Assembly: GCF_026157035.1 (NCBI RefSeq)
Contig: NZ_JANJZA010000001.1
Location: 1,033,001-1,097,000, forward strand
Source: Sphingomicrobium nitratireducens
Lineage (GTDB): Bacteria; Pseudomonadota; Alphaproteobacteria; Sphingomonadales; Sphingomonadaceae
Length of the DNA: 64,000 nucleotides
Direction of reading: 5' to 3'
Shown here: piece by piece, positions 31,952 to 36,174 of the stretch
How positions within the stretch are numbered: position 1 is the first letter of the stretch
How the letters are laid out: each line of letters begins with the position of its first letter
The notes under the pieces: model-generated
What the model saw: the letters and a program-made list of their open reading frames with translations, nothing else
Databases searched by the model: none
Told to the model about the DNA's origin: nothing
Translations under genes and position numbers: made by a program

Positions 31952-32575
31952 CTACCAGCGCAGGATCGGCGTCACGAGGACGCGGCCGAGCAGGGCGGCG
32001 ACGATCACGCTGGCGACATGCCACAGGCCCAGGTGGGCAAGCCCGCTGCCCGAACATTCGAGCGTGATGGCCAGCGCTCCGACCGCGCCTGCGGTCAGGC
32101 CGACGAGCGTTCCGGCCTTTTCCGGCAGCACCGTGGCGCCCCGTCGCAGCCAGTGCGTCAGCACGACCCCGGTGAAAAGGCCCGACGCCAGCCCCCAGGC
32201 GAAACAGCGAAGCCCGAAGGCGACGTCCATCGTCCCCGCACTGCCGGAGACGAATTCCACGATACTCACCGCAGGCAGCAGCAACGTCGCCGCGAGCACC
32301 CAATGCGCACCGCCCTGCGGTCCCCCGACGGCGGGCCGCGCGAGCCGGGTCGCGCTCCAGCCGGCCGCAACGGCCAGCAGCGCGAACAGTCCCGCGACAA
32401 GGAGCGTCAGCGACGCGGGGTTTCCGTCCGCAAGGTCGGGCCGGACGCCAAAGACGACCAGCACCGTGGCGATCGTCGCGAGCGCCGCCGTCCCTGCGAG
32501 AATCCGGCCATGACCGAGCGACAGCGGGCGGACGGGCCGGACATCGTCGGCGAGGCGATCGAGGAGGTCGTTCAT
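31952..32575 (-). CDS. nrsF: NrsF-type (DUF1109) anti-sigma factor
   Basis: The 207-residue protein has a short cytoplasmic N-terminus (MNDLLDRLADDVRPVRPL) and six hydrophobic segments, the DUF1109/NrsF pattern. Cys124 (GLRCFAWGLASG) and Cys174 (TLECSGSGLAHLG) are 50 residues apart, the same spacing as the paired cysteines of Caulobacter NrsF that matter for metal sensing. It would hold the sigma factor at the inner membrane until metal stress. It starts one base after the sigF stop and is the last gene of the buf operon. Confidence 0.9.
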   Translation of the reverse strand: MNDLLDRLADDVRPVRPLSLGHGRILAGTAALATIATVLVVFGVRPDLADGNPASLTLLVAGLFALLAVAAGWSATRLARPAVGGPQGGAHWVLAATLLLPAVSIVEFVSGSAGTMDVAFGLRCFAWGLASGLFTGVVLTHWLRRGATVLPEKAGTLVGLTAGAVGALAITLECSGSGLAHLGLWHVASVIVAALLGRVLVTPILRW

Positions 32576-32576
32576 G

Positions 32577-33101
32577 TCATTCGCTTTCGACGAGGGCGGC
32601 GAGCTTCTTGAGGCCGCGATGGATGTTGACCTTGACCGCCGCGATGCTCTGGCCGGTGATTTCGGCGGTTTCCGCGATGCTTCGTCCCTCGACCTTGGCG
32701 AGGGTGATACAGCTGGCCTGGGTCGGGGAAAGGTGGGTCATCAGCCGTTCCAGGCTGAGGCGCGCGAGGACCGGCTCCTCGTCCGAGCGGACGGCGATAT
32801 CCTCATCCTCGATCGTCTGCGGCGCGCGTTCGAGCTTGCGCAGCGTATCGATCCATCGATAGCGCGCGATCGCCGCCAGCCACGGATAGAAGGGGCGCGT
32901 CGCATCGTAGGTCGCGCGCTTGGCATGGAGCGCGAGGAGCGTGTCCTGGACGAGGTCGTCGACCATGTCGGGCGCGATGCGCCGCGTGTAATAGCGCACC
33001 AGCCAGTCGCGCGCGGCCGCGAGCGCGGCGCGGTAGGACGGGCGGTCGCCGTCCTGCGCCCGCGCCATCAGCCGCCTGAGATCGTCGTCGGTGAGGATCA
33101 T
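32577..33101 (-). CDS. sigF: ECF sigma factor, SigF-like
   Basis: The 174-residue product has ECF regions 2 (DMVDDLVQDTLLALHAKRAT, RPFYPWLAAIARYRWIDTLR) and 4 (LSPTQASCITLAKVEGRS, AETAEITGQSIAAVKVNIHRG). It has no N- or C-terminal extension. Pairing with NrsF places it in the group of Caulobacter SigF, which answers heavy-metal stress. Its start overlaps the doxX stop (ATGA). It is encoded inside the bufferin operon whose promoter carries a matching element, so it probably controls its own expression. Confidence 0.92.
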   Translation of the reverse strand: MILTDDDLRRLMARAQDGDRPSYRAALAAARDWLVRYYTRRIAPDMVDDLVQDTLLALHAKRATYDATRPFYPWLAAIARYRWIDTLRKLERAPQTIEDEDIAVRSDEEPVLARLSLERLMTHLSPTQASCITLAKVEGRSIAETAEITGQSIAAVKVNIHRGLKKLAALVESE

Positions 33102-33547
33102 CTTGCCATCTTACGGCTTATTGCCGGGGCGAGCGCAATCCTTCCCGATCCCTGGGTCAGCAGCACCAGTCCCATCGCGATCCAGCTCATGTGCACGCTC
33201 CACCAGGCCAAAGGATAGACGAACAGCTGAATGACAAGGGTCATCGCGATGAGCCCCGCAGCGGCAAAGCGCGTTCCAAGCCCAAGGAGAAGCATGATCG
33301 GCAGGACATGTTCGCCAGCCGTTGCGGCGACCGCAGCGAGGTCGGCGGGAAGCGGGACCGAAGAATAGTCGTTGCGGAACAGGGTGTAGGTCGTGTCGGA
33401 AATCTCGAACAGGCTGCCCTCTTCGACCTTTGTCCGACCCGAACGCCAGAAGATCGCGCCCAGCGCGATGCGCACGAACAGGAGAACGAGGTCGCGCACT
33501 GGCTGCCGATCGGCAAGCGAGACGAGGCGGGCGTAAAGCCGGCTCAT
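33098..33547 (-). CDS. DoxX-family membrane protein (BufD-like)
   Basis: The 149-residue product has four membrane segments. It begins with LVLLFVRIALGAIFWRSGRTKVEEG, a DoxX signature, and later has EHVLPIMLLLGLGTRFAAAG. DoxX-type proteins regularly accompany bufferin operons as the fourth gene; their role there is not settled and may involve quinone or metal handling at the membrane. It overlaps bufC by four bases and sigF by four bases. Confidence 0.87.
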   Translation of the reverse strand: MSRLYARLVSLADRQPVRDLVLLFVRIALGAIFWRSGRTKVEEGSLFEISDTTYTLFRNDYSSVPLPADLAAVAATAGEHVLPIMLLLGLGTRFAAAGLIAMTLVIQLFVYPLAWWSVHMSWIAMGLVLLTQGSGRIALAPAISRKMAR

Positions 33548-34236
33548 AACACCAGCTCCAGCACGGGCCTGAGCGCGCCCTGTTGCACGAGGGTCGTGGT
33601 GGCAGCGGCGTCCTCGTCGAGCAGGCGGCCGAGGGTCGTGCGTTTCCTTGCCAGGGCCAGCAACCGCGTTGCGCTTCTTCCGATGCGCGTGAGGCGGATG
33701 TCGTTCGCGGGGCGAGTGACGAGCAGCATGTCACCGGCGCCGGTCTGGGATGGATTCCACAGGAGGGCATCGGCGTCTTCGAGCGCCACGAGGCGGCAAG
33801 CCGGATGAGGCTGGACCGCAATGTCGACCAGCCGTTCGGGTCGCTGGTCGCCAATGGTCCGCAGGGTCAACGCGGGTGCGCGGGCTGCGCCGTGCGCTTC
33901 CAGCCAGGCCCACTCCGCCGTCGCAAGATCGCGTGCCCGCGGCGTTGCAAAGCGCGCCGCCATTCCGCACCCGATCGAGCGAAGCGGCAACTCGACTGTG
34001 GCGGGTGATTCGAGGTGGCGCTCGGCGACTTCGTGAAATGTGTCGTGACCAACCAGCTCGCGCGTCCGTTTGAAACTGTCTTCGAGCGCGATGCGGCGCG
34101 CATGATTGATCGTATTGGCATGGGCCTTGAGCGCGCGCAGCTGGGCCCGGCGCGTGCCCGAAAGCAATTCGCTTGGCAAACAGGACGGGCCGCCGCGCAG
34201 CGCGCGCATCATCTGGGTCTGGAGGTCAGGCGACAC
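33544..34236 (-). CDS. bufC: BufC/HvfC-family (DUF2063) RiPP maturation partner
   Basis: The product of about 230 residues has the DUF2063 N-terminal helical domain (SPDLQTQMMRALRGGP, HANTINHARRIALEDSF, FHEVAERHLESPA). The C-terminal half resembles the RiPP-recognition region of these proteins (DIAVQPHPACRLVALED). Family members work with the MNIO enzyme encoded next, presenting the precursor for cysteine modification. I set the start at GTG 34236, which overlaps the bufB end by 11 bases; downstream ATGs at residues 9-10 are alternatives. Confidence 0.85.
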   Translation of the reverse strand: MSPDLQTQMMRALRGGPSCLPSELLSGTRRAQLRALKAHANTINHARRIALEDSFKRTRELVGHDTFHEVAERHLESPATVELPLRSIGCGMAARFATPRARDLATAEWAWLEAHGAARAPALTLRTIGDQRPERLVDIAVQPHPACRLVALEDADALLWNPSQTGAGDMLLVTRPANDIRLTRIGRSATRLLALARKRTTLGRLLDEDAAATTTLVQQGALRPVLELVL

Positions 34237-35098
34237 GGGCGACTTCCTGCGCAAGGATCGCGTTGGCGCGTGTTGCTTCGGCCATGAGATCCTCAAAGGA
34301 CGGGACGGCATTGTCGCGCTCGACCAGGACCGGGCGCGGACCGATGCGCGAGACGAGCCGGTCGAGCAGCGACCAGCATTCCTCCGACACGGGTGAGCCG
34401 TGATCGTCGACCGCAAGGCTCGTGCCGTCGTCGTACGTCGCGACGCTGTGCCCCGCGACATGGATTTCGCCCACGAGAGAGCCGTCTATCGCGTCGACAT
34501 AGGCAAATGCGTCGATGCCGAGATTGATCTGGCTCACCAGCACATTGTTGACATCGACGAGCAGCCCGCAGCCGGCACGGCGCGCGAGCGCGTGAAGAAA
34601 ATCGACCTCGTCATAAGCATCCATGCGAAAGGCGGTCATCCGGCTGGGATTCTCGATCAGCATCGGACGACCGAGCCGGTCCTGCACGCGGCCAACCTGC
34701 GCGGCGAAATGATCGAGCGTCTCGTCGGTCATCGGCAAGGGCAGGAGGTCGGGCACCTTTTCGCCGCCAAGGCTCGACCAGCTCAGATGATCCGAGACGA
34801 GGGCCGGGGCGTATCGATCGCACAAGATCGCAAGACGTTCGAGTTCCGGCTCGTCAAGCCCGCCGGGATCGCCCATCGACAGGCCGACCGAGTGGAAGCT
34901 GACGGGTAGCGCGTCGCGCAGCGCACCCAGCCAATCGTGCATCGGCCCGCCTTCCATCATGAAATTTTGCGGATGCACCTCGACGAAGGAAGGGCCGACG
35001 CCCCGCTCCGCTGCGTCGAGGCAGGCGCCGAAATGCTGAGATTTCAGGCCAATTCCTCCACGCGGCGGCGGGGGCTGGTCGTGCGGGACGCCGGCCAC
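34226..35098 (-). CDS. bufB: BufB: MNIO-family (DUF692) multinuclear iron oxidase
   Basis: The product of about 290 residues has the TIM-barrel DUF692 fold with its metal-ligand motifs in order: SFHSVGLSMG, SDHLSW, MLIENPS, DVNNVLVSQ, EIHVAGHS and DDHGSPVSEE. MNIO enzymes such as MbnB and bufferin BufB oxidise cysteines of a precursor peptide to copper-binding heterocycles. It starts at GTG 35098, four bases after the bufA stop. No ATG lies near the domain start. It is certainly an MNIO; the exact product is inferred from the adjacent precursor. Confidence 0.92.
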   Translation of the reverse strand: MAGVPHDQPPPPRGGIGLKSQHFGACLDAAERGVGPSFVEVHPQNFMMEGGPMHDWLGALRDALPVSFHSVGLSMGDPGGLDEPELERLAILCDRYAPALVSDHLSWSSLGGEKVPDLLPLPMTDETLDHFAAQVGRVQDRLGRPMLIENPSRMTAFRMDAYDEVDFLHALARRAGCGLLVDVNNVLVSQINLGIDAFAYVDAIDGSLVGEIHVAGHSVATYDDGTSLAVDDHGSPVSEECWSLLDRLVSRIGPRPVLVERDNAVPSFEDLMAEATRANAILAQEVARVA

Positions 35099-35102
35099 CC
35101 GG

Positions 35103-35441
35103 TCAGGCTTCCGCCTGCGCCGGGTTGCCCGTACCTTCGAACGCTTCCAGCTGGCCGCCACTCGCTTCGCAGTCGCCCGCATCGACATATTTCCAGGCAT
35201 TGCCCTGGTAATCGACGCTCGAGGTGCCCGCGCAACTCGTGCCCGGGCCCGCCGCGCAGTCGTTCTTGCCGGCGAGCGCGATGCCATAGCACTTCTCCTG
35301 GTCGCTTGCGTCGGCAGCCATTTCGGCCTGCTCGACAGCTTCGGCGACTTCGCCATCATTGGCGGCGGGCGCGCCGTCGGAACAGGCGGCGAGCGCCAGC
35401 AAGGCCGTCGCAGCGCCAAGGGTGGAAACGGTTTTCATCAT
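35103..35441 (-). CDS. bufA: BufA1-like (DUF2282) bufferin precursor with lipoprotein signal
   Basis: The 112-residue precursor has a signal ending LLALAAC, a lipobox with Cys20, then an acidic linker (residues 21-49) and the DUF2282 core: [39 protein letters not shown]. The four core cysteines are Cys51, 62, 70 and 91, the residues that MNIO enzymes modify in bufferins. A bufferin is a periplasmic peptide that binds copper or other metals. A lipid anchor is unusual for the family. ATG 35438 (second Met) fits the gggag site as well as 35441. It heads a six-gene operon. Confidence 0.9.
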
Positions 35442-35491
35442 CGAACTCCCTTTTGTGATGCGGGAGGCACCAGCACCCCGCTGGCTCCTTG

Positions 35492-35517
35492 TTCGCTGGG
35501 GGTCTGCAGAAGGTTAC
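35492..35517 (-). promoter_or_regulatory. Predicted SigF-type ECF promoter of the buf operon
   Basis: On the minus strand GTAACC (35512-35517) is followed after exactly 16 bases by CGAA (35492-35495). This matches the GTAACC-N16-CGAA element that I recall being reported for Caulobacter SigF targets. It lies about 50 bases before bufA, leaving room for a short leader. Confidence 0.75.
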
Positions 35518-35622: not shown

Positions 35623-36174
35623 ATGGCCAAGACAAAGGGCGACAAGGTCGTCATCAAGAAATACGCCAACCGCCGTCTCTACGACACCGAGCGTTCGGCC
35701 TATATCACGCTCGACACGCTTGCCGGGATGATCCGCGAGGGCCGCGACGTAGAGGTGATCGATGCCAAGTCGGGCGAGGACATCACCCACCAGGTGCTGA
35801 CCCAGATCATCGTCGACGAGGAAGCGGGCGGCGCGGGCATGCTGCCGGTCTCCTTCCTGCGCCAGCTGATCAGCATGTATGGCGGCAACATGCAGGGCGC
35901 GGTTCCCAACTATCTCGAAGCGGCGATGGACGCCTTCAAGCAGCAGCAGGCGGCGATGATGGGCGGATCGATGGGCGCGGGCGCGTTCGACGCCTCGGCC
36001 TTCACCGACATGGCGCGGCGCAACATGGAAATGTTCCAGTCCGCCGCAAGCGCCTTTTCGGGCGGCAGCGGCGCGGCCAAGTCCGCACGAGCCGACGAGG
36101 CGTCGAAGGATGCCGAACTCGCCGCGCTCAAGGCGGAGCTGGCGGCGCTCAAGGCCAAGGTCGACAAGCTTTGA
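35623..36174 (+). CDS. phaR: Polyhydroxyalkanoate synthesis repressor PhaR
   Basis: The 183-residue protein starts with the PHB/PHA accumulation regulator DNA-binding domain (VVIKKYANRRLYDTERSAYI) and the adjoining granule-associated domain (DITHQVLTQIIVDEE, LPVSFLRQLISMYGGNMQG). The C-terminus is a coiled coil (AELAALKAELAALKAKV). PhaR binds both DNA and PHA granules and so couples phasin expression to storage. No pha synthesis gene lies in the window, though the H1-like gene 470 bases on has a phasin-like N-terminal region. Confidence 0.95.
   Translation: MAKTKGDKVVIKKYANRRLYDTERSAYITLDTLAGMIREGRDVEVIDAKSGEDITHQVLTQIIVDEEAGGAGMLPVSFLRQLISMYGGNMQGAVPNYLEAAMDAFKQQQAAMMGGSMGAGAFDASAFTDMARRNMEMFQSAASAFSGGSGAAKSARADEASKDAELAALKAELAALKAKVDKL

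Follow-up and report, generated by a model that had tools for sequence, protein, structure and literature searches.

A SigF/NrsF-type Buf1 bufferin operon with a predicted lipoprotein precursor in Sphingomicrobium nitratireducens

The window analysed here is a stretch of 64,000 nucleotides (nt) from Sphingomicrobium nitratireducens (contig NZ_JANJZA010000001.1, positions 1,033,001 to 1,097,000), in which positions 31952–35517 are a Buf1 bufferin operon of the SigF/NrsF type. It lies on the minus strand and comprises, in order of decreasing position, a sigma-F-type promoter site and the genes bufA, bufB, bufC, doxX, sigF and nrsF (Table 1). We consider it probable, though some way from certain, that the operon activates itself through its own SigF/NrsF pair and that its bufferin precursor is a lipoprotein. 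Six-gene operons of this type are already known, and the present one is not new in that respect. Less ordinary are two of its features: the sole BufA is of the lipoprotein type, and a second sigma-F-type site, buried inside bufC in relatives, is missing.

The six genes and their known counterparts

All six proteins pass their Pfam cut-offs, and the genes lie on one strand in the order claimed by the first-pass annotation, an earlier note on this DNA. GTG is the likely start codon of both bufB and bufC. The note had put gaps or overlaps of 1–4 bases between all genes; this holds at four of the five junctions (bufA–bufB, +4 nt; bufC–doxX, −4 nt; doxX–sigF, −4 nt; sigF–nrsF, +1 nt) and fails at bufB–bufC, where, with the GTG at 34236 taken as the start of bufC, the genes overlap by 11 nt. 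Across the whole genome there is one MNIO gene, one NrsF gene and one DUF2282 gene. Since all three sit inside this operon, their grouping is not a product of chance.

The four core Cys residues attributed to BufA are indeed there and are conserved in 97–99% of 99 relatives. BufB also passes the NCBIfam equivalog MNIO_BufB (314.5, cut-off 310). BufC has no NCBIfam match, and a sequence search of the PDB returned two matches only, both with E > 0.8; its AlphaFold model (mean pLDDT 88.4, built with 12 sequences) has as its sole PDB match at E ≤ 0.001 the DUF2063 protein NGO1945 (3dee, E 1.9e-5). For SigF, only general sigma-70 and extracytoplasmic function (ECF) sigma factor models of Pfam and NCBIfam scored over cut-off, the set holding no ECF16 model. 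Its partner NrsF has two sensor-type Cys residues, C124 and C174, which are both present in 54 of 54 relatives; their 50-residue spacing equals that of C131/C181 in Caulobacter NrsF and of C129/C179 in the Brucella homologue (PMC3511200, PMC8315932).

Table 1. Features of the operon and its flanks (window positions; lengths in amino acids, aa)
Feature	Positions	Strand	Evidence and remarks
Sigma-F (ECF16-type) site GTAACC-N16-CGAA	35492..35517	-	exact match; 5' edge 76 nt before bufA ATG
bufA, Buf1 (DUF2282) precursor, 112 aa	35103..35441	-	PF10048, 80.7 bits (cut-off 22.4); core Cys C51, C62, C70, C91
Lipobox LAAC with Cys20, the predicted lipidation site of BufA	35382..35393	-	sequence reading and pattern rule
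bufB, MNIO maturase, GTG start, 290 aa	34226..35098	-	PF05114 (MbnB_TglH_ChrH), 294.6 bits (cut-off 25)
bufC, DUF2063/PME1-type partner, GTG start, 230 aa	33544..34236	-	PF09836, 29.3 bits (cut-off 27.2)
Aligned place of the relatives' bufC site, without the site in the window (GGC CGC CTG for xGT AAC CTT)	33604..33629	-	alignment
doxX, DoxX/HvfX-like membrane protein, 149 aa	33098..33547	-	PF07681, 68.7 bits (cut-off 23.6)
sigF, ECF sigma factor, 174 aa	32577..33101	-	Sigma70_r4_2 (PF08281), 52.8 (cut-off 25.7); Sigma70_r2 (PF04542), 37.4 (cut-off 24)
nrsF, anti-sigma factor, sensor-type C124 and C174	31952..32575	-	PF06532 (DUF1109), 114.5 bits (cut-off 26.8)
Autotransporter with PATR repeats, 1483 aa	27436–31887	+	flank; converges on nrsF with a 64-nt gap
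Polyhydroxybutyrate (PHB)-accumulation regulator	35623–36174	+	flank

The closest published counterpart is the buf1 cluster of Caulobacter crescentus, which shares the same six families, the same sigma-F consensus and a sigF-nrsF pair beside buf1 (PMC3511200, PMC8224329). There, sigF-nrsF (CC3253-CC3252) adjoin CC3254-CC3257 and have a sigma-F promoter of their own (PMC3511200), and SigF (CCNA_03362) and NrsF (CCNA_03273) are placed in one copper-induced cluster with CCNA_03363-03366 (PMC8224329). The statement in the first-pass annotation that Caulobacter encodes the pair apart from its buf targets thus does not hold for buf1 and applies to no more than the second cluster of the regulon, CC2907-CC2905; any claim to novelty built on such a separation falls with it. 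The differences lie elsewhere: the Caulobacter pair is served by a promoter of its own and also controls a second target cluster, whereas in the window all six genes are co-directional and the only bufA is of the lipoprotein type.

Two further systems are comparable in content and differ in layout. In Sinorhizobium meliloti, the ECF16 pair rpoE7-ecfR7 lies beside the DUF692 and DUF2063 genes of SMb20530-SMb20527 with GTAAC...CGAA promoters, but the pair is divergent from the buf-like operon and two promoters serve them (PMC6180224). In Cupriavidus metallidurans, gigPABT and rpoQ-rsqA form a divergon with RpoD-dependent rpoQ-rsqA (PMC10304878), in contrast to the co-directional operon of the window.

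A check proposed in the first-pass annotation, a search for the same gene order in relatives, showed that the order recurs. Our family set comprised 199 genomes including the window's own; DUF2282 was found in 66 of them at 101 places, and the 100 places outside the window were taken as 89 stretches, whose genes were assigned by means of profiles built on the proteins of the window. These stretches reach about 6 kb to each side or less, with shorter ones where a contig ends and in the genus set, and genes scored absent may lie outside them. Among the 90 stretches, window included, all six genes are co-directional in 17, five of which (locus L070 among them) have tandem bufA genes; bufBC and bufA-doxX-sigF-nrsF are divergent in 21, bufA stands alone in 17, and the rest take other forms. 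One more locus, L032, came from a scan with BufB and was left out of the analysis. In a genus set of 71 genomes, again including the window's own, DUF2282 occurs in 31, and stretches were added for 28 further genomes. Co-directional six-gene operons of the genus number 12, the window and L070 included. Overall, the same order is found in 26 other genomes (16 + 11 − 1, with the window left out and genome G077 counted once).

Eight loci of another form (L058, L090, L092, L098, L105, L108, L110, L114) have a six-Cys precursor gene flanked by bufB and nrsF-sigF, while a Buf1 gene and doxX are transcribed divergently. Two of the eight precursors were scored, and those of L058 and L098 match NCBIfam BufA2 at 108.2 and 103.2 bits (cut-off 60). 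Sigma factor and NrsF genes have been reported in Buf1 but not in Buf2 clusters (PMC12452194).

The BufA precursor and its lipobox

Besides its four core Cys residues, BufA has a fifth, C20, which the first-pass annotation did not mention and which lies in a lipobox. The N-terminus is hydrophobic and reads as a Sec-type export signal ending in LAAC-SDG; an acidic linker of about 30 residues follows, and then the DUF2282 core. Here and in all counts below, the lipoprotein type, as opposed to type I, was assigned by a pattern rule.

Lipoprotein-type precursors are a minority. The BufA profile gave 135 matches, 109 of them at 40 bits or more, including seven without a chosen start and one without a core; Buf1 counts exclude nine rows below 56 bits, which are Buf2-like with six Cys. 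In the resulting set of 101 Buf1 domains (corrected for start choice), 28 are of the lipoprotein type and 72 have no lipobox. Of the 66 family genomes with DUF2282, 40 have soluble copies only, 22 have both types, one has a soluble copy plus a truncated domain, and only three, namely the window's own, G051 and G128, have the lipoprotein type alone. In one locus (L073:5853-6603) a single open frame with two tandem DUF2282 domains stands upstream of a normal bufA.

Such proportions lend some support to the view that the operon is an ordinary soluble periplasmic Buf1 system, in which LAAC goes unused, signal peptidase I cuts BufA as it does most bufferins, and nothing is anchored. AxA-type sites close to C20, ALA at residues 16–18 and APA at 24–26, also speak for this possibility. 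What argues against it is the recurrence of the lipobox: LLALAAC is found again in L161, L164, L167, L168 and L169, the N-terminus of one L161 copy being nearly identical to that of the window, and next to lipobox copies there are soluble ones with AxA and without a Cys at that place. On balance we regard the soluble alternative as improbable and a predicted lipoprotein as the better description of BufA.

To learn where the lipoprotein form came from, we relied on pairwise BufA comparison and on BufB trees, a tree of the BufA core having been set aside because it had 55 columns and was unresolved. The window BufA has its best match in L161, sharing 82 identities with the lipoprotein copy that stands upstream there and 62 with the soluble copy of that locus; in the tree of BufB, the proteins of these two loci are adjacent (support 94/99). 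The soluble partner of a tandem pair has therefore most likely been lost in the lineage of the window, to judge from these sequence comparisons. Among the 12 six-gene operons of the genus, six have a tandem lipoprotein and soluble pair, four, from four species (the window, L167, L168 and L169, with one DUF2282 per genome in each), have a sole lipoprotein, and two have a sole soluble BufA. On the BufB tree, the sole-lipoprotein state requires three changes, two of which are forced by well-supported branches.

Lipoprotein bufferins as such have been predicted before, for about 16% of Buf2 (PMC12452194) and for "a subset" of bufferins (PMC12636315). Among the matches listed in a literature search on lipoprotein, bufferin, MNIO and DUF2282, the portions available singled out no lipoprotein Buf1. 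Comparable are the DAG-RiPPs DybA and NedA, which combine a lipoprotein signal with an MNIO-modified precursor, as the window BufA is predicted to do from its lipobox pattern; a lipidated MNIO product has been demonstrated for NedA, an oxazolin, with a reported mass change of about −4 Da for each modified motif (PMC12636315). Experimentally shown DAG-RiPPs are of the ChrH and oxazolin types (PMC12636315), whereas the window encodes a four-Cys Buf1 in a SigF operon.

The other two lipoprotein-only genomes are informative as to the core. G051 and G128, which belong to one genus, keep a DUF2282 lipoprotein (loci L129 and L130) and have no MNIO match in the genome; in both proteins the two central Cys have been lost and the outer two retained. 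At the sequence level this pattern matches the published split, in which the central Cys of bufferins are modified and the outer ones form a disulphide (PMC12452194). The two cases may go back to one event.

Sigma-F-type sites ahead of bufA and inside bufC

The site upstream of bufA, at whose 5' edge the first-pass annotation had ended the operon (35517), reads TGTAACC...CGAA and fits the consensus (T/C)GTAAC-N17-CGAA (PMC8315932) known for sigma-F/ECF16 promoters (PMC3511200, PMC8315932). With this exact site and its own SigF and NrsF, the operon has a layout able to activate itself, as that annotation had supposed. The motif is widespread in relatives. For promoter counts we used 99 Buf1 genes of the family sample (27 lipoprotein-type; the first BufA of L070 was scored as non-lipoprotein by start choice): GTAAC-N17-CGAA occurs in the 250 nt ahead of the gene in 63 cases, compared to about 1.5 expected from motif density in the same DNA and to none for the reversed motif. 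Distances to the gene range from 63 to 161 nt, the 76 nt of the window falling within that range. In the genus, a sigma-F-type site precedes bufA in 11 of the 12 six-gene operons; the exception, L163, has a soluble BufA and no exact site upstream. Over the whole window genome the motif has nine matches, three of them reading GTAACC, and the reversed motif has four. Further sigma-F targets in this genome were considered and dismissed, the two GTAACC sites outside the operon not being convincingly upstream of any role-related gene.

A second site was found in the relatives. The BufB-tree lineage of the window comprises 20 loci (support 94/96), namely the 17 co-directional ones together with L081, L085 and L093. 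In 17 of these 20 loci (L057, L060, L064, L071, L073, L075, L078, L079, L081, L084, L088, L093, L097, L101, L109, L112 and L116) another GTAAC-N17-CGAA lies inside bufC, 98–155 nt before its stop and at one aligned codon; it is absent in the window, in L070 of the same genus and in L085. The residue that precedes Asn at this place varies (Gly, Cys, Arg, Ser), while the DNA, xGT AAC, is constant. After synonymous shuffling (500 shuffles) of the 17 bufC genes, a set selected for presence of the site (17 of 20 loci before selection), it was kept in that part of the gene in a mean of 0.66 loci and a maximum of 4. The embedded site is apparently under constraint at the DNA level. Where doxX directly follows bufC, the distance from the site to doxX resembles the distances of bufA promoters, and we read it as a putative sigma-F promoter for doxX-sigF-nrsF. 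In L081 and L093 the site is kept though no sigF follows within the stretch. No such site appeared among the matches listed in a literature search on intragenic promoters with ECF16/NrsF, which covered titles and abstract openings of open-licence papers. In three divergent-type loci of one genus (L062, L066, L067), a sigma-F-type site occupies another internal position, in doxX about 20–33 nt short of its end and immediately before sigF.

In the genus of the window, the aligned bufC site is gone from all 12 co-directional operons (alignment by eye), and an exact site stands elsewhere in bufC in three of them (L070, L165, L170). The absence of the embedded site means that a single-promoter reading fits the window better than it fits most relatives. 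The competing view is that sigF-nrsF are mainly transcribed apart, from a housekeeping promoter in doxX or bufC, so that the six genes are not one unit. The sites embedded in most lineage loci give it some ground, as do Caulobacter sigF, whose own promoter has basal sigma-F-independent activity (PMC3511200), and the RpoD dependence of Cupriavidus rpoQ-rsqA (PMC10304878). Set against this are the loss of the bufC site in the window, the 4-nt overlaps at bufC–doxX and doxX–sigF, and the scans of the operon, which were for the sigma-F motif: no other GTAACC-N16-CGAA with two or fewer mismatches was found, and relaxing the motif and its spacing brought up a single poor match, at 33114. We think separate transcription rather unlikely here and prefer a single transcript from the bufA promoter.

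A proposed circuit and what it may mean

The self-activating operon could work as follows; a single transcript, induction by a signal or metal, modification, lipidation and copper binding are what the named families lead us to expect. NrsF would keep SigF at the inner membrane until excess copper or thiol-reactive stress, acting on C124 and C174, releases it, as suggested by the Caulobacter system. Freed SigF would then fire the GTAACC-N16-CGAA promoter ahead of bufA, and the transcript probably spans all six genes in this genome, sigF and its brake nrsF included. In the cytoplasm, BufB together with BufC would turn the central Cys residues of BufA, C62 and C70, into 5-thiooxazoles. The precursor would be exported by Sec and then lipidated on C20, and its acidic tether of about 30 residues would attach it to a membrane on the periplasmic side. 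Anchored in this way, and with a C51–C91 disulphide, BufA would chelate copper.

As to the trigger, it might instead be an oxidant (hypochlorite, thiol oxidation), with bufferin and DoxX serving oxidative-stress defence. The related ECF16/NrsF pair of Brucella answers hypochlorite, others are said to answer reactive oxygen or chlorine (PMC8315932), and NrsF does act through two Cys residues. However, the SigF regulon of Caulobacter is induced by copper and a sigF mutant is copper-sensitive (PMC8224329), while bufferins are reported as copper chelators (PMC12452194); we hold an oxidant to be an unlikely principal signal and copper the better candidate.

Apart from the hypochlorite response, several observations weigh against the self-activating lipoprotein operon. 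Cupriavidus without rpoQ showed no decrease in gig (PMC10304878), and fusions of the S. meliloti pair were unresponsive to H2O2, cadmium and chromate, copper not being among the agents listed (PMC6180224). NrsF is more widespread than bufferins, with a match in 95 of the 199 family genomes (94 over cut-off) versus 66 for DUF2282 and 70 for MNIO. An exact site within 250 nt precedes only 10 of the 27 lipoprotein-type genes, versus 53 of the 72 other Buf1 genes. Some NCBIfam scores are also low: NrsF scores 42.9 bits on the anti-sigma-F equivalog NF042994 (cut-off 300), a strict model and not a definition of the SigF/NrsF pair; DoxX scores 47.4 on HvfX (cut-off 80); and BufA has a weak match to BufA2 (19.9, cut-off 60).

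For the genus as a whole we would venture a bolder scenario, tentatively and with somewhat more doubt than confidence. A membrane-anchored, MNIO-modified Buf1 would have replaced the soluble one as sole bufferin, probably along two or more branches, and the ancestral sigma-F promoter buried in bufC, which in relatives would allow separate transcription of sigF-nrsF, would have been erased. A circuit with two promoters would thereby have become one transcript, so that the sensor and regulator increase in step with the precursor and its maturase.

As a class of modified peptides that bind copper, bufferins were described only recently. Should a lipid-anchored Buf1 suffice as the sole bufferin, copper could be buffered without a soluble peptide in the periplasm, and the tandem soluble and lipoprotein pairs of the relatives are ready comparisons. 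The genomes that lack an MNIO gene and the central Cys residues independently support the assigned target residues. The bufC site would give a clear example of a coding sequence in which DNA-level constraint preserves a promoter, and the absence of that site in one genus offers a natural experiment on how the coupling between a sigma factor and its target operon bears on the response.

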